Of a stretch of DNA of 34,977 bases, positions 24,102 through 33,777 are shown piece after piece; within the stretch, counting starts at the first letter, position 1; each line of letters opens with the position of its first letter. This DNA comes from a virus, in IMG/VR virus record IMGVR_UViG_3300008963_000013, positions 1-34,977 of that record. One strand, given 5' to 3'. Made by a program: the position numbers and the translations under genes. The notes beneath the pieces were generated by a model. It did not search any database. It was not told the origin of the DNA and saw only the letters and a program-made list of their open reading frames with translations.

Positions 24102-25049
24102 TTAAAAAGGGTCATCATCTTCAATATTTTTAGGATTTTTAAAAACATCTAAATTATTGTCGTATTCAAATTCATTTCGATTACTTAAATCTTCTTCTGT
24201 GTTTCCTACTTCATCGCATTCTCTTAAATGTCCTATTGTTTTATCATATTTAAAGTGAAAATCATCAAAAGAACTTCCCCTAGAAAATTGATGTATTACT
24301 TTTATAACACCTGTAAACTCATCTTCGTTAATATACAGCGGTTTTAAATTTATTACTGTTTCAGCTTTTTTCACAACAGTAGACCCTAAATGTCCTGTAG
24401 GTTTAAGAGACCCATAAGCATTGTGTATAATAACGCATACGTGCATATTATATTCATCAGTCCATCTCATTATTTTGCTAGCGATTTCTTGAGACATAAC
24501 TAAGTCGTTACTGTCTGGTATTAAATCTGCAACACCATCTATAAACACAACTTTTATTGTTTCTTTAATTTTATCAGAAGCTAATAAAGCATCTACAAAA
24601 TCTACTCTTTGTTCAGGAGTTTGATGTCTAAGTTTAAACGGATAATACCCAGTAACTTTATTATCTGCCATACGCACAACTCTATTAAATGTTTTCCACG
24701 CATGAAACTTACCTTGTTCAGTATCTATATCCACACAAGCAAACTCATTTGTTTTATAACCTTTAATTTGATTAAAATACTTAGAACTTCCTGAATTATA
24801 TATAGCTGCTAAATGAGATTTAAAAAAAGACTTATAAGTTTTAGATGGTGCAGATATACAACTAAACTCTCCTTCTGTAAATATAGGATTGTCGTATGTT
24901 TTGCCCCTATCTTCGTATTTCCCTATGCTAATAATAGGCTTAGGTCTTTCAGGTTCTTTAGTTAAGTCAATAAATGATTTTTCATATTCTTCTTCAAACC
25001 AACTAAAATCCTTTTCTTTTTCTTCACTATCAAAATTTGGATTAATCAT
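24102..25049 (-). CDS. RepA-like RecA-fold ATPase (AAA_25 type), probable helicase
   Basis: The 315-residue product has the core of a RecA/RepA-like hexameric ATPase: EFSCISAPSKTYKSFF (residues 61-76) as Walker A region, VVFIDGVADLIP (167-178) with D171 as Walker B, and CVIIHNAYGSLKPTGHLGS (205-223) as the histidine/GHLGS motif of the RepA/AAA_25 group. The Walker A loop reads APSKTYKS, keeping K73 and S74 but lacking both consensus glycines. RepA-like proteins act as replicative helicases or loaders on plasmids and phages. The gene lies downstream of the initiator-like gene and overlaps the preceding gene by 8 bases. A helicase role fits but is an inference; another ATPase role is possible. 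Confidence 0.72.
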   Translation of the reverse strand: MINPNFDSEEKEKDFSWFEEEYEKSFIDLTKEPERPKPIISIGKYEDRGKTYDNPIFTEGEFSCISAPSKTYKSFFKSHLAAIYNSGSSKYFNQIKGYKTNEFACVDIDTEQGKFHAWKTFNRVVRMADNKVTGYYPFKLRHQTPEQRVDFVDALLASDKIKETIKVVFIDGVADLIPDSNDLVMSQEIASKIMRWTDEYNMHVCVIIHNAYGSLKPTGHLGSTVVKKAETVINLKPLYINEDEFTGVIKVIHQFSRGSSFDDFHFKYDKTIGHLRECDEVGNTEEDLSNRNEFEYDNNLDVFKNPKNIEDDDPF

Positions 25050-25551
25050 TGGTTAAGTTTTTATTCATTGATGACTTCTTCATTACTAAAAAAGAAGTAA
25101 AATCTCTAACTATTTTTAGTAGTTTATCTGTTTCTTTGTTGTTTAAAAACATAGATTCAGGTATAGTTAAGCATAATTCTTTTACTTGTTCTTTAGTTAA
25201 ATTACTTATATCTACTTCTTTATTATTAGTGTCGTAGTTACTATGCTTTTGCATACTCCCTGACATAATAAGTTGCATTTCTTTTTCTTTGATATTATGT
25301 GTACTAAATATTTTAGTTAGCTTATTCATTATATCTTTTATAGATAATTCTTCTCGTTCTTCGTCATTGTATTCATGTATTTGGTTTATTAGGTTGTTAT
25401 TAATTACTTCGTATCTAACAATAAGTTGCACTAAAACATAATAGTCGTTGTATGTTAATAGCATACCTTCTTCTGTTTGGTTATAGAAGTGTATTATAGA
25501 TTTTAGGCAATCTTTATCATAGTCTGAAACAAAGAATTTGGGTTTACTCAT
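25042..25551 (-). CDS. Unknown protein between initiator-like and ATPase genes
   Basis: The 169-residue product from ATG 25551 (SKPKFFVSDYDKDCLKSIIHF...) is mostly helical and charged, with no motif I recognise. An in-frame ATG at 25596 would add 15 residues (LPSPKKSILNLKNK); the inner start is preferred because it follows an A-rich AAAGAATAAA leader. The end overlaps the RepA-like ATPase gene by 8 bases, so the two are probably co-translated. By place it may be a helicase partner or loader, but nothing in the sequence proves this. Confidence 0.6.
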   Translation of the reverse strand: MSKPKFFVSDYDKDCLKSIIHFYNQTEEGMLLTYNDYYVLVQLIVRYEVINNNLINQIHEYNDEEREELSIKDIMNKLTKIFSTHNIKEKEMQLIMSGSMQKHSNYDTNNKEVDISNLTKEQVKELCLTIPESMFLNNKETDKLLKIVRDFTSFLVMKKSSMNKNLTND

Positions 25552-25699
25552 TTTATTCTTTAAGTTCAGTATTGATTTTTTAGGAGATGGCAGCATATTG
25601 TTTTAGTTTATTTTAATAGTTTCTAATGCGTTTAATTTAATTTTACACCCAAACATATAGTTTATTGTTTAAAGTTGCTTAAAACTAACGTGAGTATGA

Positions 25700-26491
25700 T
25701 TAGAGCGAACCATTTAGCTTATTACTATTCTTTTTTTGGTATAAAGACTTGTCATTATTCCTAAATGCGTCTAAGTAAACTTCAAATCTTCCTTCGGTTA
25801 ATAGATGTTTAGGATGAGATGTAACTGTTTTGTACGCTTCTTTTTGGTTTAGTAGTCCTGCAATAGCTTGTTTTACTTCTGTAACTGTTTTACCTTCCTT
25901 AACTAATCTATTCACTTCGCTTTTTTCTTGATAGCCTAGATGATTAAAATTACTATGTTCTACTTTTAGTATTTTAATTCTACCTGCATTCCACAATTCT
26001 AAGAAATGTTGTTCATCTCTTAAACGTGGTTTGTCATCATCTAATTTAAAATCTTTTTCTGTTTTTTTATTATATATAGTATTATTATTATATATAGTAT
26101 TATTATATGTCGGATTTTTTTCCGAGCTGTTTTCGGATTTTTTTCCGATTTCATTCGGATTTTTTTCCGAGTGTTCGGATTTATATTCGTTCCATTTTTT
26201 AGCTTTTGTAGTTAGCTTGATGTAATCTTTACCGTCTAGCTTTTTAATAACTATTAATTTTAATTTTTCAAGCTCTTTATAGTAGCGATACATTGTATCT
26301 TTTTTGTCTGTAAGTAATGGCAATTCTTCTATTGCTTTGTTTTTACTTGCAAAATAATAATCTTTATTTTCTACAACTATCTTATCAGCCCAACTAGGTA
26401 ATTCATACATCCAAGAGAATAAGTATGCTTGCTTTATATTTAATCCCCACTCGTTTGCTTTTACGTTGTTTATGTTGCTATTATATCTCAT
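25700..26491 (-). CDS. Winged-helix replication initiator-like protein
   Basis: The 263-residue product has an N-terminal winged-helix-like domain (residues about 15-103: KQAYLFSWMYELPSW ... EELPLLTDKKDTMYRYYKELEKLKLI, then a beta wing). A low-complexity linker follows (about 104-145, with SEKNP, IGKKSE and NTIYNN repeats). The C-terminal domain (about 150-250, HFLELWNAGRIKI ... KLLSEVNRLV-like helices) recalls DnaD/lambda-O-type replication proteins. The DNA encoding the linker carries palindromic iterons and an AT-rich tandem repeat, just as lambda's origin lies inside gene O. The next genes leftward include the RepA-like ATPase. Role as origin-binding initiator is inferred from layout and fold pattern. 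Confidence 0.6.
   Translation of the reverse strand: MRYNSNINNVKANEWGLNIKQAYLFSWMYELPSWADKIVVENKDYYFASKNKAIEELPLLTDKKDTMYRYYKELEKLKLIVIKKLDGKDYIKLTTKAKKWNEYKSEHSEKNPNEIGKKSENSSEKNPTYNNTIYNNNTIYNKKTEKDFKLDDDKPRLRDEQHFLELWNAGRIKILKVEHSNFNHLGYQEKSEVNRLVKEGKTVTEVKQAIAGLLNQKEAYKTVTSHPKHLLTEGRFEVYLDAFRNNDKSLYQKKNSNKLNGSL
26068..26103. repeat. AT-only-type 18-bp tandem repeat (DUE-like)
   Basis: TATTATATATAGTATTAT occurs twice in exact tandem (26068-26085, 26086-26103), and a third copy begins as TATTATAT. It contains only two G residues in 36 bases, directly next to the iterons, and would melt easily. It encodes the NTIYNN repeat of the initiator-like protein. Confidence 0.8.
26110..26183. other. 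Candidate replication origin iterons inside initiator-like gene
   Basis: Three exact copies of the palindrome TCGGATTTTTTTCCGA lie at 26110-26125, 26133-26148 and 26155-26170, and a half copy TCGGATTTA at 26175-26183. Spacing is 20-23 bases, about two helical turns. Copies 1 and 3 are read as SEKNP and copy 2 in another frame as IGKKSE, so the DNA rather than the peptide is conserved. With the adjacent AT-rich repeat this matches the lambda ori plan (palindromic iterons plus unwinding element inside the initiator gene). The origin role is an inference. Confidence 0.6.
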
Positions 26492-26500
26492 GTTTATATT

Positions 26501-26860
26501 TTATAAGCTTTTTATTTTTTTAGTAACAATATCTTTATTGTATTTAGGTAGAAATTTGTTAATTAAAAATCTTTCAACTATTTTATATTCATCATCTTTG
26601 AACTCAATAAAAGAATATGTTTTATAATCTTTCTTTTCTTCTTTAAAGTGAAAATTTAATCTATTGTAGATGTCATTTGTTGAGCCAATATAAACGAGTT
26701 CATCAAGATAATTGAATAAAAAATAAACACCTTTAAAAACAACTCTATCTTTACGATGCCTTGTAAGTGATGAAACATCAATATTGTTAGCTTTGTTTAA
26801 AACTTCTAACACTTCTGGTGTTATATAGTTTGCTGATGATTGTAATTGCTCTAAACTCAT
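26501..26860 (-). CDS. GIY-YIG family nuclease
   Basis: The 119-residue product has a full small GIY-YIG domain after a 40-residue N-terminal helix region: GVYFL (44-48), LVYIGST (55-61), NRLNFHF with R67 and H71, E96 in ERFLINKFLPKYN. This is the UvrC/Slx1-like catalytic set: tyrosines, arginine, glutamate and a C-terminal asparagine. Such enzymes cut DNA at flaps or specific sites; in phages they include free-standing homing nucleases and host-DNA nucleases. It lies between a promoter with a structured leader and the initiator-like gene. No intron was seen, and the target is unknown. Confidence 0.8.
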   Translation of the reverse strand: MSLEQLQSSANYITPEVLEVLNKANNIDVSSLTRHRKDRVVFKGVYFLFNYLDELVYIGSTNDIYNRLNFHFKEEKKDYKTYSFIEFKDDEYKIVERFLINKFLPKYNKDIVTKKIKSL

Positions 26861-28599: not shown

Positions 28600-28877
28600 T
28601 TTTTTCCGTTGTATATTAATAAAAACGAATCTACATTTTGCGTAAATTCATTCTTAAATTTCATTAGTTGTTTAAATTTCTTAATTGAGTTAATTATTGT
28701 AGCGTGGCAATATCCATATTTACGTGCTATTCTGTGCATAGAATAACCTTCTTTAACGTGCATTATGTAATTAAATAAACCACGAGCAACAACGTATTCA
28801 ATATACCTTACTCGCTTATGCAAGTCATCTAAATCAAACTCAATTTCGATTTGTTCTTTTATCTCATTAACTTTCAT
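28578..28877 (-). CDS. DnaA domain IV-like DNA-binding protein
   Basis: The 99-residue product carries the DNA-binding pattern of the DnaA C-terminal domain without any ATPase part: RVRYIEYVVARGLFNYIM (23-40), then GYSMHRIARKYGYCHATIINSIKKF (44-68), where GYCHATIINSIKKF corresponds to the DnaA signature G-DHSTV-HA--K. It may bind DnaA-box-like sites in the phage or host genome, to recruit or block initiation. It overlaps the upstream gene by 11 bases and lies in the replication/recombination series. The domain call is good; the function is an inference. Confidence 0.72.
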   Translation of the reverse strand: MKVNEIKEQIEIEFDLDDLHKRVRYIEYVVARGLFNYIMHVKEGYSMHRIARKYGYCHATIINSIKKFKQLMKFKNEFTQNVDSFLLIYNGKKWEDQKK

Positions 28878-29538
28878 TGTCTAGTATTTTAGATAGATTA
28901 GGTTTAAAGTAGTTTTCTCCTTTCATTACTTTTCCGTCTGCTCGTTTAATTGGTTTGCCGTCTACATCTAGCTTGCTCATATTGCTACTATGTACTTCAT
29001 TAAAACCATCTACGATTTTATCTTGAAAACCATGACTTAATACCTTACCACACCAGATATAAAACTCATCTACAATAGCATCAAAGGTTTCAGTTAAATC
29101 ACTATCAAGTATTGCATCCATATATTCTTCATTCTCTTCTTTGCTTAACTCGTAGTTTAATGTGCTTTCTTCTTGTGGGATAAGTTGTGGCTTATCCCTA
29201 ATAGGTAAATCAAAAGACTTTCTAAAATCCCCAACCATATTAATTAGCTGAGTTAATGAAGATTTATTTACAATGGTTTTATTTTTAGACACCGTAGCAA
29301 GTTTTTTAAGTTCTGTTTTATTGAACATTTTTTTAGCTATTACTTCTCCGTTACCGTATAATCTTTGGTACTCGTTGTTATGTCTATTTAAAAAGTCTGT
29401 AATTTCAGATTTATTAAACGTGGTAAACTCTCTGCATACATAGGTAAATAAATAGTCTACTTCTTTAGGTTTTAATAGTTCGTCTTTGTTTATTAGATTA
29501 ATGTTATCTAATATTGATTTCATTCGTGTATTATCCAT
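28867..29538 (-). CDS. Unknown protein next to ERF gene
   Basis: The 223-residue product is mostly helical, with a lysine-rich segment at about 68-92 (KKMFNKTELKKLATVSKNKTI), an acidic part at about 122-150 (EESTLNYELSKEENEEYMD) and a C-terminal KADGK-type loop (DVDGKPIKRADGKVMKG). Nothing is recognised. Its ATG overlaps the ERF stop codon (TAATG), which suggests translational coupling and a possible partnership in recombination or replication. Confidence 0.6.
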   Translation of the reverse strand: MDNTRMKSILDNINLINKDELLKPKEVDYLFTYVCREFTTFNKSEITDFLNRHNNEYQRLYGNGEVIAKKMFNKTELKKLATVSKNKTIVNKSSLTQLINMVGDFRKSFDLPIRDKPQLIPQEESTLNYELSKEENEEYMDAILDSDLTETFDAIVDEFYIWCGKVLSHGFQDKIVDGFNEVHSSNMSKLDVDGKPIKRADGKVMKGENYFKPNLSKILDNES

Positions 29539-30191
29539 TATCTAATTTCGATTTTAGAAAGTTCTTCTTGGGTTAAAAATTCAGACAAATATTCTTTTTG
29601 CTTAGCGTTTATGTATCGTTGTTCAGATAGTTGCTTCAATGCTTTTTCCTTTTTATCTGTGTTTAAGACTTCAACTAAAGCATCTATATTAGATACTAAA
29701 GTTTTCTTTTTAGCTGTAGTCTTTTTAGCTTTTGTTTCTGTAGGTTTTTTGACTTGTTTTGCTTCTTCTTTTCTTTTTCTATAAGGATTATCAATGTCAT
29801 CTTTATCTGTAGCTATGTGGAAGTATTTAAGCAAAAAGTATCGTTCAGCATAAGTCAATGCACTACCTAATCCTTTTTCCCAATCATTTTGTCCGTTAGC
29901 AGCAAACAAGTTTTCATCTTTTTCTCCTGTTTCTGTATCTACCCAAGTGAACTTCATTTTAGCACGAGTAAGTATTTCACTTTTTTCTCCGTTTCTAGTA
30001 GTGTAGTCTTGTCTTACGTTATCTATGTCTAATACTTCTTGCTTTAAAAGCAATCCATAATTATTCATAAGTGGTTTAATGTGGCTTAGCACTTTATCTC
30101 CTGATACGTATTTGTAACCAAAAGATTTTTTATCGTCTGCAAGCCCTACTACTTGTTTTTGAATCTCTAATAATTTTTGATATAAGTTCAT
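29538..30191 (-). CDS. erf: ERF-family single-strand annealing protein
   Basis: The 217-residue product shows the ERF pattern: an N-terminal helix LYQKLLEIQKQV, FGYKYVSGDKVLSHIKPLMNNYGLLL (24-49), a beta region KFTWVDTETGE, and the signature GSALTYAERYFLLKYFHIATD (109-129) with the family's G-A-TYA-RY-L core, followed by a DDID linker. The C-terminus (about 140-170) is a lysine-rich tail. ERF proteins bind single strands and promote annealing, used in phage recombination and genome circularisation. The gene follows a coiled-coil protein gene and precedes an unknown gene with a 1-base overlap. The SSB-like gene is close upstream. Confidence 0.88.
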   Translation of the reverse strand: MNLYQKLLEIQKQVVGLADDKKSFGYKYVSGDKVLSHIKPLMNNYGLLLKQEVLDIDNVRQDYTTRNGEKSEILTRAKMKFTWVDTETGEKDENLFAANGQNDWEKGLGSALTYAERYFLLKYFHIATDKDDIDNPYRKRKEEAKQVKKPTETKAKKTTAKKKTLVSNIDALVEVLNTDKKEKALKQLSEQRYINAKQKEYLSEFLTQEELSKIEIR

Positions 30192-30203
30192 AATTTCTAG
30201 TTT

Positions 30204-31034
30204 TTAAATGTTATTTATTTTGTTTTTAGCCCAATTTTTAAATGAAGTAAATTTTTCTATTATTTCACTTTGTACTTCGTGTTCTTCTGCATTATCAGGA
30301 CAACTAAATTCATCAAGCCAAGAGTTTAGTTTTACTTTCAAAGGTGCTTTAGCTAGATTTTCTTTTCTTTCTTTTTCTAACCTTTCCTTTTCTTCTTTTT
30401 CTTTTTTAGCTTTAGCTTCTAATCGCTCTTTTTCTCTTAATTCTGCTTGTAGCTTTTTGTTTTCAGCTTCTATCTTAGCTAATCTTTCTTGTTCTTCTTT
30501 CTTAGCTTTAGCTTCTGCTTCTTCTTGTTTTATTTTTTCTTCATAAGACTCTTTACATTGGTTGTAAAATGATTTAAACATTTTCTCATTCATTTCACCT
30601 AAATCAACACCAACCAAATCTTCTTCTGTAGCATATTTGTTTATTTCAGATAGCCTACTTTCAGCTAATTTTTTCTTACGTTCTTTCTCTAAATTTTCTT
30701 CGTATTTTTCTATAGCTAAAAGCTTGTTCTCCATTTCTTCATTGTGAATAATATTTTTATTCTTAATAGCATCTACGAACTTACCGCCTTGCAAGAAGTA
30801 TTCTTTATTAGCTTTGTGCCATTTAGTAAGACCTTTTGTTCTATTATCTCTAATTCTAAGCCTTAATTCTCTAGCTTCTTCTGATAATTCTGGTGTAATT
30901 TCTTCCATTATAAGAGATAAATATTGCTCTTCTAAAGCTTCTCTCTCTCTAATAATAGTGTTTAAGCCTTTTGTTATTTCGTTAGCTTTTTGTTCTGATA
31001 ATCCAAATTCTGTGTGTTTTACTTGTAATTCCAT
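30204..31034 (-). CDS. Coiled-coil protein of ERF operon (DUF1351-like)
   Basis: The 276-residue product starts with a helical domain (ELQVKHTEFGLSEQKANEI ... LRIRDNRTKGLTKWHKANK) and then holds a long, nearly unbroken coiled coil (about 105-235) of E, K, A and R, with repeats such as KERLEAKAKKEKEEKERLEKE. A short C-terminal domain follows (LKVKLNSWLDEFSCPDN). Proteins of this form, in part called DUF1351, are commonly encoded beside phage annealing proteins; their job is not known. The gene is 12 bases before erf. A terminator lies upstream at the end of the SSB-like gene. Confidence 0.6.
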   Translation of the reverse strand: MELQVKHTEFGLSEQKANEITKGLNTIIREREALEEQYLSLIMEEITPELSEEARELRLRIRDNRTKGLTKWHKANKEYFLQGGKFVDAIKNKNIIHNEEMENKLLAIEKYEENLEKERKKKLAESRLSEINKYATEEDLVGVDLGEMNEKMFKSFYNQCKESYEEKIKQEEAEAKAKKEEQERLAKIEAENKKLQAELREKERLEAKAKKEKEEKERLEKERKENLAKAPLKVKLNSWLDEFSCPDNAEEHEVQSEIIEKFTSFKNWAKNKINNI

Positions 31035-31073
31035 TTGTTTATGATTTAATAGTTTCTAATGATATATGTAGCC

Positions 31074-31098
31074 AAAAAAAGGAGAATGCATCTCCTTT
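31074..31098 (-). terminator. Intrinsic terminator after SSB-like gene
   Basis: Read leftward, AAAGGAGA (31098-31091) and TCTCCTTT (31085-31078) form an 8-bp stem with a 5-base loop, followed by a run of T (31080-31074). It lies 23 bases after the SSB-like stop and before the coiled-coil gene, so it may lower transcription of the genes that follow. AGCC/GGCT outside the stem can extend it. Confidence 0.8.
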
Positions 31099-31120
31099 AA
31101 TGGCTTGTTAAAGTTAATTG

Positions 31121-31447
31121 TTAAAAAGGTAAGTCATCTTCATCATCATCTAAATCAGATGAAGCTGTTTGACCTTCTTCTTTAGCTTGCTTCTTAACTA
31201 CTGTTATTTCTCCGTCAGTCCAAAAAGTATTTCCGTTACCTACATAGAATCTAGGTTTCTTTTCTTCTCTATCTTCTTTAGATTGAGCCACGTAAGCTGA
31301 TACGTTTTGGTCGTAATCATTTCCTTCGTCAGATAAAGCAATAGTTAATTCTATTCCCTTAGCTTCTTTTCCTTTTTTCTTAGATAACACTTTGCTTAGC
31401 GTTTCTAATGTTTCTGCCTTAATGTAAAGGCTGTTTAAACTTGCCAT
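31121..31447 (-). CDS. SSB-like protein with acidic C-terminal tip
   Basis: The 108-residue product has a beta-rich body (GIELTIALSDEGNDYDQNVSAYVAQ, 31-55; FYVGNGNTFW, 67-76) and ends in an acidic tail DLDDDEDDLPF. Such a DD-D-PF tip is the hallmark by which bacterial and phage single-strand binding proteins hold partner enzymes. The body does not show an ordinary SSB OB-fold signature that I can recognise. The gene has its own -7 box and its own terminator, so it is probably expressed strongly and singly, as expected for a stoichiometric DNA-binding protein. Role inferred from tail and context. Confidence 0.6.
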   Translation of the reverse strand: MASLNSLYIKAETLETLSKVLSKKKGKEAKGIELTIALSDEGNDYDQNVSAYVAQSKEDREEKKPRFYVGNGNTFWTDGEITVVKKQAKEEGQTASSDLDDDEDDLPF

Positions 31448-31478
31448 ATTTAATTAAATTTAAGTTACTAATTTTGTT

Positions 31479-31486
31479 CAAAGATA
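31479..31486 (-). promoter_or_regulatory. Leftward -7 box for SSB-like gene
   Basis: Read leftward this is TATCTTTG, a perfect TAnnTTTG box, 31 bases before the SSB-like ATG. It is divergent from the rightward box at 31523. No clear -33 element was seen. Confidence 0.55.
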
Positions 31487-31522
31487 AAATAATTGTTGAA
31501 AACTCGTGTAGTTTTTTTTTAT

Positions 31523-31530
31523 TAATTTTG
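31523..31530 (+). promoter_or_regulatory. Rightward -7 box for the isolated plus-strand gene
   Basis: TAATTTTG fits TAnnTTTG, 28 bases before the ATG at 31559. A TTG occurs about 24 bases upstream, a little far for a -33 element. Confidence 0.45.
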
Positions 31531-31558
31531 TATTATTACTAATTTAATTCATTTTATT

Positions 31559-32332
31559 ATGCCTAGAGCAACAAAAAAAGACGATTGGGTAAAAAAAGAC
31601 AGAGTTTACCAAATCATAGGAAATGATGGTCGAGATGCATTTCCTGTAAGTTACGATTTAAGAGTTACTTCAACTCCTAAAAACCCACTAATCTATCGAG
31701 AAGGTGGCGAAAACAAGCCTATCCGTTATTGTGAAAACCAAACAACCGTATTTGAAGACGAGCAAAAAGGTCGTTCTTTATTAGGTCGTGTAGTGTTTTA
31801 CAATGGTAGAATTACCGTACCAAAAGATAACGTAGTTTTGCAAAAGTTACTCAGTATTTACCACCCTTACAAGGATAAAAAATACTATGAAATTGACCCA
31901 GAAGCAAAAGCTGAACAAGAGTTAGAACAAGAGAAAAACTACATTTTATTAGGTAGTTCTATAATCGAGTTAAAAGACTTTGAAGCTAAAGCTATTGGTC
32001 GTTCAGTTTTAGGTAACAAAGCATCTAGTATGCCTGTCTCTACCATTAAGCACAATTTAATATCTAAATCTAAAGCCGATGCCGAAACCGCTAATTTAAT
32101 TAGTGATTTGATTAGCGATGAAGATTTAAGTGTTATTGCATTAGGCTATAACGCTATTGATGCAGGTATAATTAAACTAAGCGACAAAAAAGACAAATTC
32201 TTAACTGTTAAAGACAAAAGAGAATTGTTTACTATTGGCTTTGATGAAGACCCTTACGAGAAATTAAAAAACTACTTAAAAAGTAAAGAAGGAGAACCTT
32301 TAAGAAAAAGCTTAGAAAAGCTAATTAAGTAA
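31559..32332 (+). CDS. Conserved phage protein, unknown ('PRATKKDDW' family)
   Basis: The 257-residue product begins PRATKKDDWVKKDRVYQI, has a beta-rich N-terminal domain (PLIYREGGENKPIRYCENQTTVFEDEQ, then GRVVFYNGRITVPKDNVVLQKLLSIYHPYK) and a mostly helical C-terminal half (ISDEDLSVIALGYNAIDAGIIKLSDKK ... FDEDPYEKLKNYLKSKEGE). I recall proteins of the same plan from many marine phages, without established function. It is the only rightward gene in the early region, bounded by its own promoter and a terminator, so it may follow late timing and could be structural or DNA-associated. No enzyme motif is seen. Confidence 0.68.
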   Translation: MPRATKKDDWVKKDRVYQIIGNDGRDAFPVSYDLRVTSTPKNPLIYREGGENKPIRYCENQTTVFEDEQKGRSLLGRVVFYNGRITVPKDNVVLQKLLSIYHPYKDKKYYEIDPEAKAEQELEQEKNYILLGSSIIELKDFEAKAIGRSVLGNKASSMPVSTIKHNLISKSKADAETANLISDLISDEDLSVIALGYNAIDAGIIKLSDKKDKFLTVKDKRELFTIGFDEDPYEKLKNYLKSKEGEPLRKSLEKLIK

Positions 32333-32337
32333 AAAGT

Positions 32338-32365
32338 AAAAGCCAGTTTAATCGCTGGCTTTTTT
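32338..32365. terminator. Terminator at convergent gene ends (probably bidirectional)
   Basis: AAAAGCCAG (32338-32346) pairs with CTGGCTTTT (32355-32363) with an 8-base loop, followed rightward by further T residues. Leftward the stem is followed by ACTTTTTAC, so it can also stop leftward transcripts. It overlaps the last codons of the 64-residue leftward gene. Confidence 0.75.
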
Positions 32366-32542
32366 ATTTATACTCACTTCCCAATTAGACAATTCTGTTT
32401 CTCCATCCATCACGCTTTCATAAACATCTGTAAGCTTATTGTATATTTCTTCAAAAAAGTTATTTACTATTCTTGTTTTCTCGCAACTTAACAAGTCTTG
32501 ATTTTCTAATCTTTTTTTACGTCTCAAATCTCTAATATACAT
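32348..32542 (-). CDS. Small unknown protein
   Basis: The 64-residue product is basic at the start (YIRDLRRKKRLENQDLLSCEKTRIVNNFFEEIYNKLTDVY) and acidic later, probably helical. No domain is recognised. Its start overlaps the end of the PD-(D/E)xK nuclease gene by 11 bases, and its stop lies in the loop of the terminator hairpin. Confidence 0.5.
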   Translation of the reverse strand: MYIRDLRRKKRLENQDLLSCEKTRIVNNFFEEIYNKLTDVYESVMDGETELSNWEVSINKKASD

Positions 32543-33005
32543 ATTTATCTTTTATAAGTTTAGCTGTTTCGTAACAATCATCTGCTGTTCTTGGCATATA
32601 TAAATCCACGTTTTCATAATTTAATGTGCAATGTCGTTCAAATAATTTATACCTAAGATTAAATATAGGAGTAGGAAATCCTTTTACTTCTATAATAAAC
32701 GAACCTTTTTTACCAAAATGAGATTCACTATCTACAAAATCAGGAGTATAAGATATTTCAGAAACTTTGCTAAACATTCTGTTTTTAAATATGCCCTTGC
32801 CATTTGTTGTTCTTTTATAGCTTTTAACATCCGAATCTATTGCATTAAATAAAACTATTTTTTTTGTTTCGTAATTAATAGGTAAGCCTTGTTCATGCAG
32901 ACACATAGCCATAATCTTTTCTAGTTTAGACTTGTATAATTTACCTAAAAACATTCTATCCTTTCGATTAGATGTTGTTTTTATTTTAAGATTCTTTTTA
33001 GCCAT
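32532..33005 (-). CDS. PD-(D/E)xK endonuclease (DUF1064 / T7 endonuclease I-like)
   Basis: The 157-residue product shows a small PD-(D/E)xK nuclease: a first helix with E29 (LYKSKLEKIMAMCLHEQG), then SYTPDFV with D89, FIIEVKGF with E106 and K108, then RYKLFERHC. This is the order and spacing of phage Holliday-junction-resolving or branched-DNA enzymes such as T7 endonuclease I and the DUF1064 group. It would resolve recombination or replication intermediates before packaging. It follows the flap exonuclease gene but has its own -7 box at 33019, and it overlaps a small unknown gene. The nuclease fold is well supported; the exact substrate is not. Confidence 0.75.
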   Translation of the reverse strand: MAKKNLKIKTTSNRKDRMFLGKLYKSKLEKIMAMCLHEQGLPINYETKKIVLFNAIDSDVKSYKRTTNGKGIFKNRMFSKVSEISYTPDFVDSESHFGKKGSFIIEVKGFPTPIFNLRYKLFERHCTLNYENVDLYMPRTADDCYETAKLIKDKYVY

Positions 33006-33018
33006 TACTTGTTTTTAA

Positions 33019-33026
33019 CAAAGATA
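33019..33026 (-). promoter_or_regulatory. Leftward -7 box for endonuclease gene
   Basis: Read leftward this is TATCTTTG, a perfect TAnnTTTG box, with TTG about 22 bases upstream (33051-33049). The ATG is 14 bases downstream. Confidence 0.55.
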
Positions 33027-33054
33027 ACAGAAATATGTATATGATTATCAATAT

Positions 33055-33777
33055 TTATTCAATTTCTACTTCATCAAACACTTTGCAAGGTCTTAAATCT
33101 GTTCTTAATTTAAGCATAAGGTAATTATCTCTTATGGCTTTTTTTGCTAAATAAGCACTTTTGTTTCGTTTTCTGTATTCATGCCATATAACTTTCATAT
33201 AATCTAAATCTGTCTTACAATTAGATATCATCTTGCTTGCAGTTTTTAATCCTACACCTTTTAAACACTTCATTCCGTCTGCGTTATCTCCCATTAATAA
33301 TTGTAAGTAAAAATTAAACTTAGCTTTTTTCTCGCTAATATTTTTAACTTCTAAGTATCTTCCGTAATACAAATCCATATAGGTGACAGGAAAGGTTAAG
33401 TAGTCTTTGTCATTAGCACAAACTATTACTTCTGTTAATGGGTATTCTTTTTTTACATGAAACCAAGTAGATATTAAATAATCATCTGACTCTGCTCCAA
33501 CTGCTATATAAGGATTATAGGTTTCTATAATATGTTTTTTAATTTCTACATAATTAAACGGTAATGGCTTCCCTTTTCTGTTAGATTTATAAGACTTACT
33601 TAGTATCTTTCTAAATGTGGTATTTTTAGGATGCTCAATAAATATTTTATAAAAATCACAATCAGATTTGTTTATTATTTCTTCAAATATTTCGTGTATT
33701 CTATCTTGGTAAACATTTAAGTCTTCTATGTTTTTGTATAAAAGACTGTCTGCATCAATTAGCGTTAATCTCTCCAT
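33055..33777 (-). CDS. 5'-3' exonuclease / flap endonuclease
   Basis: The 240-residue product has the acidic motifs of the T5 exonuclease / Pol I N-domain family in order: LIDADSLLY (D8, D10), the basic helical-arch-like segment SYKSNRKGKPLP (62-73), GAESDDYL (E96, D98, D99), ANDKDYL (D123, D125), GDNADG (163-168) and a helix-hairpin-helix KCLKGVGLKTASKMI (170-184). It should remove RNA primers and 5' flaps during replication. No polymerase gene is seen next to it. Its start overlaps the upstream gene by 13 bases, as part of the leftward early operon. Confidence 0.9.
   Translation of the reverse strand: MERLTLIDADSLLYKNIEDLNVYQDRIHEIFEEIINKSDCDFYKIFIEHPKNTTFRKILSKSYKSNRKGKPLPFNYVEIKKHIIETYNPYIAVGAESDDYLISTWFHVKKEYPLTEVIVCANDKDYLTFPVTYMDLYYGRYLEVKNISEKKAKFNFYLQLLMGDNADGMKCLKGVGLKTASKMISNCKTDLDYMKVIWHEYRKRNKSAYLAKKAIRDNYLMLKLRTDLRPCKVFDEVEIE

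Follow-up and report, generated by a model that had tools for sequence, protein, structure and literature searches.

The segment between 26.07 and 26.19 kb of an uncultivated viral contig is very probably a Bacteroidota-type phage replication origin of lambda-like plan, in which the N-terminal domain of an initiator protein would bind iterons located within its own gene; judged from sequence, this is the best explanation of the data as a whole. The contig, a whole linear IMG/VR record of 34,977 bases (hereafter the window), carries its structural genes on the plus strand until approximately 23.2 kb and early genes on the minus strand beyond. Among the latter is the gene for the replication initiator (25700-26491, minus strand; 263 aa), which encodes a winged-helix N-domain, an iteron-bearing linker and a helical C-terminal domain. 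The protein matched PHROGs families phrog_11527 (E=1e-34) and phrog_428, annotated as "replication initiation protein" (E=4e-9); nothing useful was retrieved from the PDB by sequence. Its residues 1-116 are 67% identical to gp54 of phage FCL-2, and in a tree it falls into a Bacteroidota clade beside FCL-2 and a Flavobacteriaceae bacterium (71% identity).

AlphaFold2 predicted an N-terminal winged-helix DNA-binding domain (residues 1-101; 26189-26491, minus strand) with pLDDT values of approximately 95-98 past the first ten residues. The predicted recognition helix (residues 64-76; 26264-26302, minus strand) lies within the conserved motif K63-x-D65-T66-x-Y68-R69-x-x-K72. A disordered linker follows (residues 107-158; 26018-26173, minus strand; pLDDT below 50 at residues 107-119 and 121-158), encoded by the iteron array and an AT-rich element, and then a helical C-terminal domain (residues 159-250; 25742-26017, minus strand), presumably the helicase-recruiting module.

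The array consists of three exact copies of TCGGATTTTTTTCCGA at 26110-26125, 26133-26148 and 26155-26170, spaced by 23 and 22 nt. As all three copies have the same orientation, they are iterons. In gene order (minus strand), iteron 1 (26155-26170; gene strand TCGGAAAAAAATCCGA) is read SEKNP, iteron 2 (26133-26148) presents the same DNA in a different frame and is read IGKKSE, and iteron 3 (26110-26125), which adjoins the AT-rich element, is again read SEKNP; the frame difference of the second copy had been pointed out before and holds. A degenerate half iteron with one intact arm (26175-26190, minus strand; TCGGA at 26175-26179) lies 20 nt further on. The candidate unwinding element, an AT-rich 18-bp exact tandem repeat of 2.2 copies (26067-26106), is located 3' of the array in gene orientation. 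The three exact copies, the half copy and the AT-rich tandem repeat, all placed in the linker by the preliminary description, were thus confirmed. Its term "16-bp palindromes" is correct as to the exactness of the copies but not as to perfect palindromy, since 5-bp arms flank a 6-bp A/T core: the iteron consensus is an inverted repeat, TCGGA-N6-TCCGA. No further copy of TCGGATTTTTTTCCGA was found in the window at up to two mismatches. At up to three mismatches there were four matches, compared to a mean of 0.35 in shuffled sequences, and none of 100 shuffles reached four.

Selection acts on the iteron DNA. The linker is of low complexity and disordered, and the DNA repeats might have been a by-product of a repetitive peptide; we consider the probability of this negligible. 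Among 20,000 synonymous recodings with the codon usage of the record, two sites never arose and one site arose 62 times. When the gene's own synonymous codons were permuted (20,000 trials), two sites were obtained 37 times and three never. The array uses the codons TCG, TCC and CCG, which are rare in this genome. A spacing of 22 nt, moreover, is no multiple of three. Across 271 distinct homologous genes with at least two sites each, iterons lie in frames 0, 1 and 2 in 720, 279 and 263 cases, respectively, with a spacing of 22, 23 or 35 nt and an A/T core. Iterons thus occupy all three frames, so that the same DNA motif is read SEKNP, GKKS or RKKIR among relatives. This comparison of homologues had been proposed in the preliminary description, and it revealed conserved iteron DNA encoding a peptide that changes by frame. 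The recoding and the spread of frames in relatives both back the claim of selection on DNA, and together they rule out peptide-driven repeats.

The N-domain and the iteron are tightly paired across phyla. A protein-blind scan of viral contigs for the exact 16-mer returned at least 120 stretches; 106 of those listed encode an N-domain homologue, and in nearly all of these the array abuts the homologous domain. Conversely, a scan for the N-domain that was blind to DNA, with 80 of 522 loci kept, revealed TCGGA-N6-TCCGA in the linker of 76 of the 80 genes (at least two copies in 75), and no such site in approximately 0.5 Mb of flanking DNA. When prokaryote genomes were searched for the paired-iteron pattern, again without regard to protein, 95 of 119 loci encoded the N-domain (E <= 4e-14); the other 24 were mostly GC-core repeats or chance occurrences, with a few broken relics. 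The pair was found in Pseudomonadota, Bacteroidota, Campylobacterota and Fusobacteriota, the hosts being Pseudomonas, Halomonas, Pasteurellaceae, Gilliamella, Thiothrix, Flavobacterium, Dyadobacter, Mesonia, Aquimarina, Arcobacter, Sulfurovum and Fusobacterium, as well as one possibly misassigned Parcubacteria bin. The sampling of homologues is dominated by Pseudomonas. Of 349 genomes of this genus, 32 carry the initiator and the same 32 carry paired iterons, while iterons are present in none of the 317 genomes lacking the initiator; four further genomes of the 349 contain a nuclease chimera (see below) and no iterons. Among 247 Flavobacteriaceae genomes a single relative was detected, in the centre genome of the set itself. 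The plasmid collections searched yielded only a few distant relatives and no support from plasmid replicons.

Two cultured phages carry TCGGA-N6-TCCGA sites in the initiator gene, F116 with six and FCL-2 with three. The F116 initiator is an open frame of approximately 337 codons containing the six iterons (L520:3501-4517; NC_006552.1 from 19163). The RefSeq record of F116 leaves this frame unannotated and has the short genes F116p31 and p32 marked over the same DNA.

TCGGA..TCCGA arrays encountered in Streptomyces, Verrucomicrobia, Bacteroides and Breznakibacter were rejected as unrelated GC-core repeats or chance occurrences. Those of Breznakibacter and Bacteroides are GC-core TCGGA-N6-TCCGA arrays with an exact 23-nt period, unrelated to the initiator (L280:4763-4893, L282:192-299, L232:5938-6022, L304:5806-5913). 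In Verrucomicrobia contigs (L204, L218, L221, L235, L268, L276), palindromic TCGGA..TCCGA repeats whose cores contain GC are scattered at a spacing of approximately 22 nt and apparently form a dispersed repeat family.

The proposed mechanism begins with binding of the winged-helix N-domain to the TCGGA-N6-TCCGA iterons inside its own gene, whereby D65, T66, Y68 and R69 of the recognition helix would read the CGGA arms. Such binding is indicated indirectly, by the joint occurrence of N-domain and iterons and by the co-variation of their sequences. Because the copies are about two helical turns apart, bound protomers would line up on one face of the DNA, and the array with its A/T cores could be wrapped or bent. 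The resulting strain would melt the AT-rich tandem repeat adjoining the last iteron. Recruitment of the replicative helicase, via a phage or host loader, would fall to the C-terminal domain and lead to initiation. Since a single open reading frame holds both the N-domain and its binding sites, the two may travel between genomes as one specificity cassette, with the C-terminal module being exchanged. The varied C-terminal modules of relatives, with Phg_2220_C (PF09524) in the FCL-2 homologue and DnaT (PF17948) in another, suggest such cassette travel with exchange of the helicase-recruiting part.

This anatomy resembles that of known in-gene origins. In phage lambda, the origin in gene O comprises inverted-repeat iterons of approximately 20 bp, situated midway through the coding sequence, and an adjacent AT-rich tract (PMC7466680), and the same plan is found in the origins of Stx phages, of P22 (gene 18) and of phage L (gene 18) (PMC7466680, PMC8022706). 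In the window, too, the iterons lie within the initiator's own coding sequence, the inverted repeats (5-bp arms) are about 20 nt apart (22-23 nt), and an AT-rich tract with a predicted unwinding role stands beside the array (26067-26106). The lambda-like plan put forward in the preliminary description is borne out in its in-gene position, in the AT-rich stretch 3' of the array and in the winged-helix N-domain. Lambda, P22 and L, however, each have iterons of their own, in contrast to the single iteron shared here across several bacterial phyla, and sequence similarity of the initiator to the lambda O family is marginal (phrog_678, "replication initiation O-like", E=5e-4). A second likeness is to plasmid initiators of the RepA_N type. 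The Rep protein of pSK41 binds its origin through a winged-helix N-domain, its Rep boxes are central in rep, and its C-terminal domain is separable (PMC5703833). The window protein shares with these initiators the winged-helix N-domain and the in-gene sites, and the best Foldseek matches of its N-domain, albeit weak (E=2e-3), are the N-domains of staphylococcal plasmid initiators (4PQL/4PT7). It is phage-borne, however, and belongs to a different protein family: none of the Pfam families matched, RepA_N (PF06970) included.

Replication proteins of F116, H66, phiAH14a, FCL-2, Psychrobacter pOW20-A and Mannheimia 587AP2 have been noted as homologues in PMC4936722, and they belong to the same family as the window initiator. 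In-gene origins, and this protein family as phage replication proteins (the latter from PMC4936722), are already known. The passages of PMC4936722 and PMC5217972 consulted mention neither iterons nor an origin. Within the part of the literature covered, we found neither the 16-mer iteron nor an origin in this initiator family, nor a described origin for F116 or FCL-2, and no earlier description of the cross-phylum conservation of the iteron, of its co-variation with the recognition helix or of the HNH fusions presented below.

Two other functions were considered for the array. The repeats could be operator sites by which the protein controls its own gene or operon, with replication starting elsewhere. 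A DNA-binding protein with in-gene sites could indeed act as a transcription roadblock, and a second, regulatory role is possible. As a replacement for the origin reading this is nevertheless quite unlikely: the sites are located mid-gene, approximately 320 nt past the start codon of the initiator, and they have an AT-rich neighbour in nearly all relatives (in 250 of 257, the A+T content of the 60 nt past the last iteron exceeds that of the N-domain coding sequence). Moreover, the C-terminal modules of relatives include DnaT and Phg_2220_C, and PHROGs ties the protein to replication initiation. Iteron-like arrays in plasmids also serve partition and copy control, and the protein might instead bind the array as a site of packaging, partition or incompatibility. 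The ability of F116-type phages to persist as episomes (PMC5217972) would suit such a role. We rate it as very unlikely, since hundreds of diverse phages carry the array as a unit with the AT-rich element and an initiator-type gene, and since the coverage maximum of phiC725A, taken as the packaging start, is near the terminase genes and away from the initiator (PMC5217972). The cumulative GC skew turns at approximately 23-24 kb, together with a change of coding strand, and 26.1 kb is unmarked; the skew follows the coding strand and is uninformative as to the origin.

The sequence of the recognition helix varies together with that of the iteron. In proteins that share the iteron, residues D65, T66, Y68 and R69 are invariant even where identity falls to 24%, and 252 of 256 distinct genes with the motif K63-x-D65-T66-x-Y68-R69-x-x-K72 have TCGGA-N6-TCCGA; of the other four, one is a broken gene and three are nuclease fusions (L166, L189, L338). 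Other helices go with other iterons: KPDT[VI]KRH with GGGA-N6-TCCC, KPDTLKRH with CGTGA-N6-TCACG, helices of the MKYTIEG group (Leu, Arg, Ala or Lys near position 68) with CGAC(T), and SKDRLYR with CGGTA. In a sample found by protein only and thinned to 80% identity, CGGA arms were present in 35 of 38 genes with Tyr/Trp68-Arg69 and in none of 21 without. Under strict handling of phylogeny the correlation is non-significant, with three independent well-supported pairs and none opposing. The correlation between helix and iteron is confounded by ancestry, and a natural recognition code, in which helix residues 65-69 would specify iteron bases 2-5, is therefore a strong lead and not proven. The relatives in which altered helices occur together with altered iterons (L321-L324, L400-L468; GGGA, CGTGA, CGAC and CGGTA) constitute a natural specificity-switch set.

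The N-domain also occurs fused to a nuclease. A search with the HNH part revealed 47 of 51 HNH relatives to be fused to the N-domain (HNH Pfam E ~1e-10). Counting L189, such fusions amount to approximately 48 Pseudomonas-type prophages (L166:2835-3419, L189:4001-4603, L338:1533-2129 and L469-L515); L492 and L511 appear degraded. Nearly all of the 47 fusions keep the TCGGA-type helix, and no TCGGA site was found at the locus of any of them. In 22 whole records of fusion carriers, 21 had no site and one had a single GC-core site; the L189 record contains no TCGGA site. Where readable, the gene next to the fusion is an initiator with a TCGGA-type C-terminal domain and a different N-domain (HTH_36 in L338). 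Chance sites are expected to be absent from any 50-kb record, and what is informative is thus the fusion itself, together with conservation of the helix and replacement of the initiator. Three HNH genes that lack the N-domain (L517-L519) adjoin ordinary TCGGA-type initiators with four sites; HNH alone therefore coexists with TCGGA sites, whereas the N-domain fusion does not. HNH genes of this type are a possible source of the fusions.

These N-domain::HNH chimeras are candidate origin-directed nucleases. We lean, by a small measure, towards their being weaponised ex-initiators: a phage would have swapped the N-domain and iterons of its initiator for others of different specificity, and the old N-domain, fused to HNH, would cut rival TCGGA-type origins while the phage's own is spared. 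A precedent is the Odn protein of Vibrio phage ICP1 (PMC8263062), an enzyme that cleaves the origins of PLE, a satellite of ICP1. As in the chimeras described here, an origin-binding domain of an initiator is fused to a nuclease in Odn, but that nuclease is T5orf172 (GIY-YIG), whereas the Pseudomonas chimeras carry HNH and derive their binding domain from another initiator family. The phage group and the genomic setting differ as well, the chimeras being known from sequence and residing in dozens of prophages beside a replacement initiator.

A single 16-bp signal makes it possible to predict origins in phages from four or more phyla, the cultured F116 and FCL-2 included, and the many natural pairs of helix and iteron render the evolution of origin-binding specificity directly testable. 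The recognition code, if true, would make the targets of both initiators and chimeras predictable. To our knowledge, the action of ICP1 on PLE is the one case so far in which phage-encoded targeting of rival replication origins has been demonstrated; should the HNH chimeras cut TCGGA origins, such targeting would be a general strategy.

The genes surrounding the initiator include possible replication partners. Two genes downstream, a P-loop ATPase (24102-25049, minus strand), possibly a helicase or loader, matched AAA_25 below the Pfam cut-off (E=9e-6) and had no PDB sequence match; it is a plausible replication partner of the initiator. The preliminary description had proposed a self-contained replicon of initiator, iterons and a RepA-like ATPase. 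Initiator and iterons are in place, but the case for the ATPase is weaker, and since its match is sub-threshold we infer the self-contained replicon rather than observe it. Between the initiator and the ATPase lies a gene for a 184-aa protein (25042-25596, minus strand), a possible loader with no credible family match. Directly upstream of the initiator and on the same strand is a GIY-YIG nuclease gene (26501-26860, minus strand), possibly encoding a homing-type nuclease at the origin. Further into the early region (28867-33777, minus strand) are genes for a MazG-like pyrophosphohydrolase, an Erf-type annealing protein, a possible resolvase or DUF1064 nuclease and a 5'-3' exonuclease, which would fit a recombination module located next to the origin.
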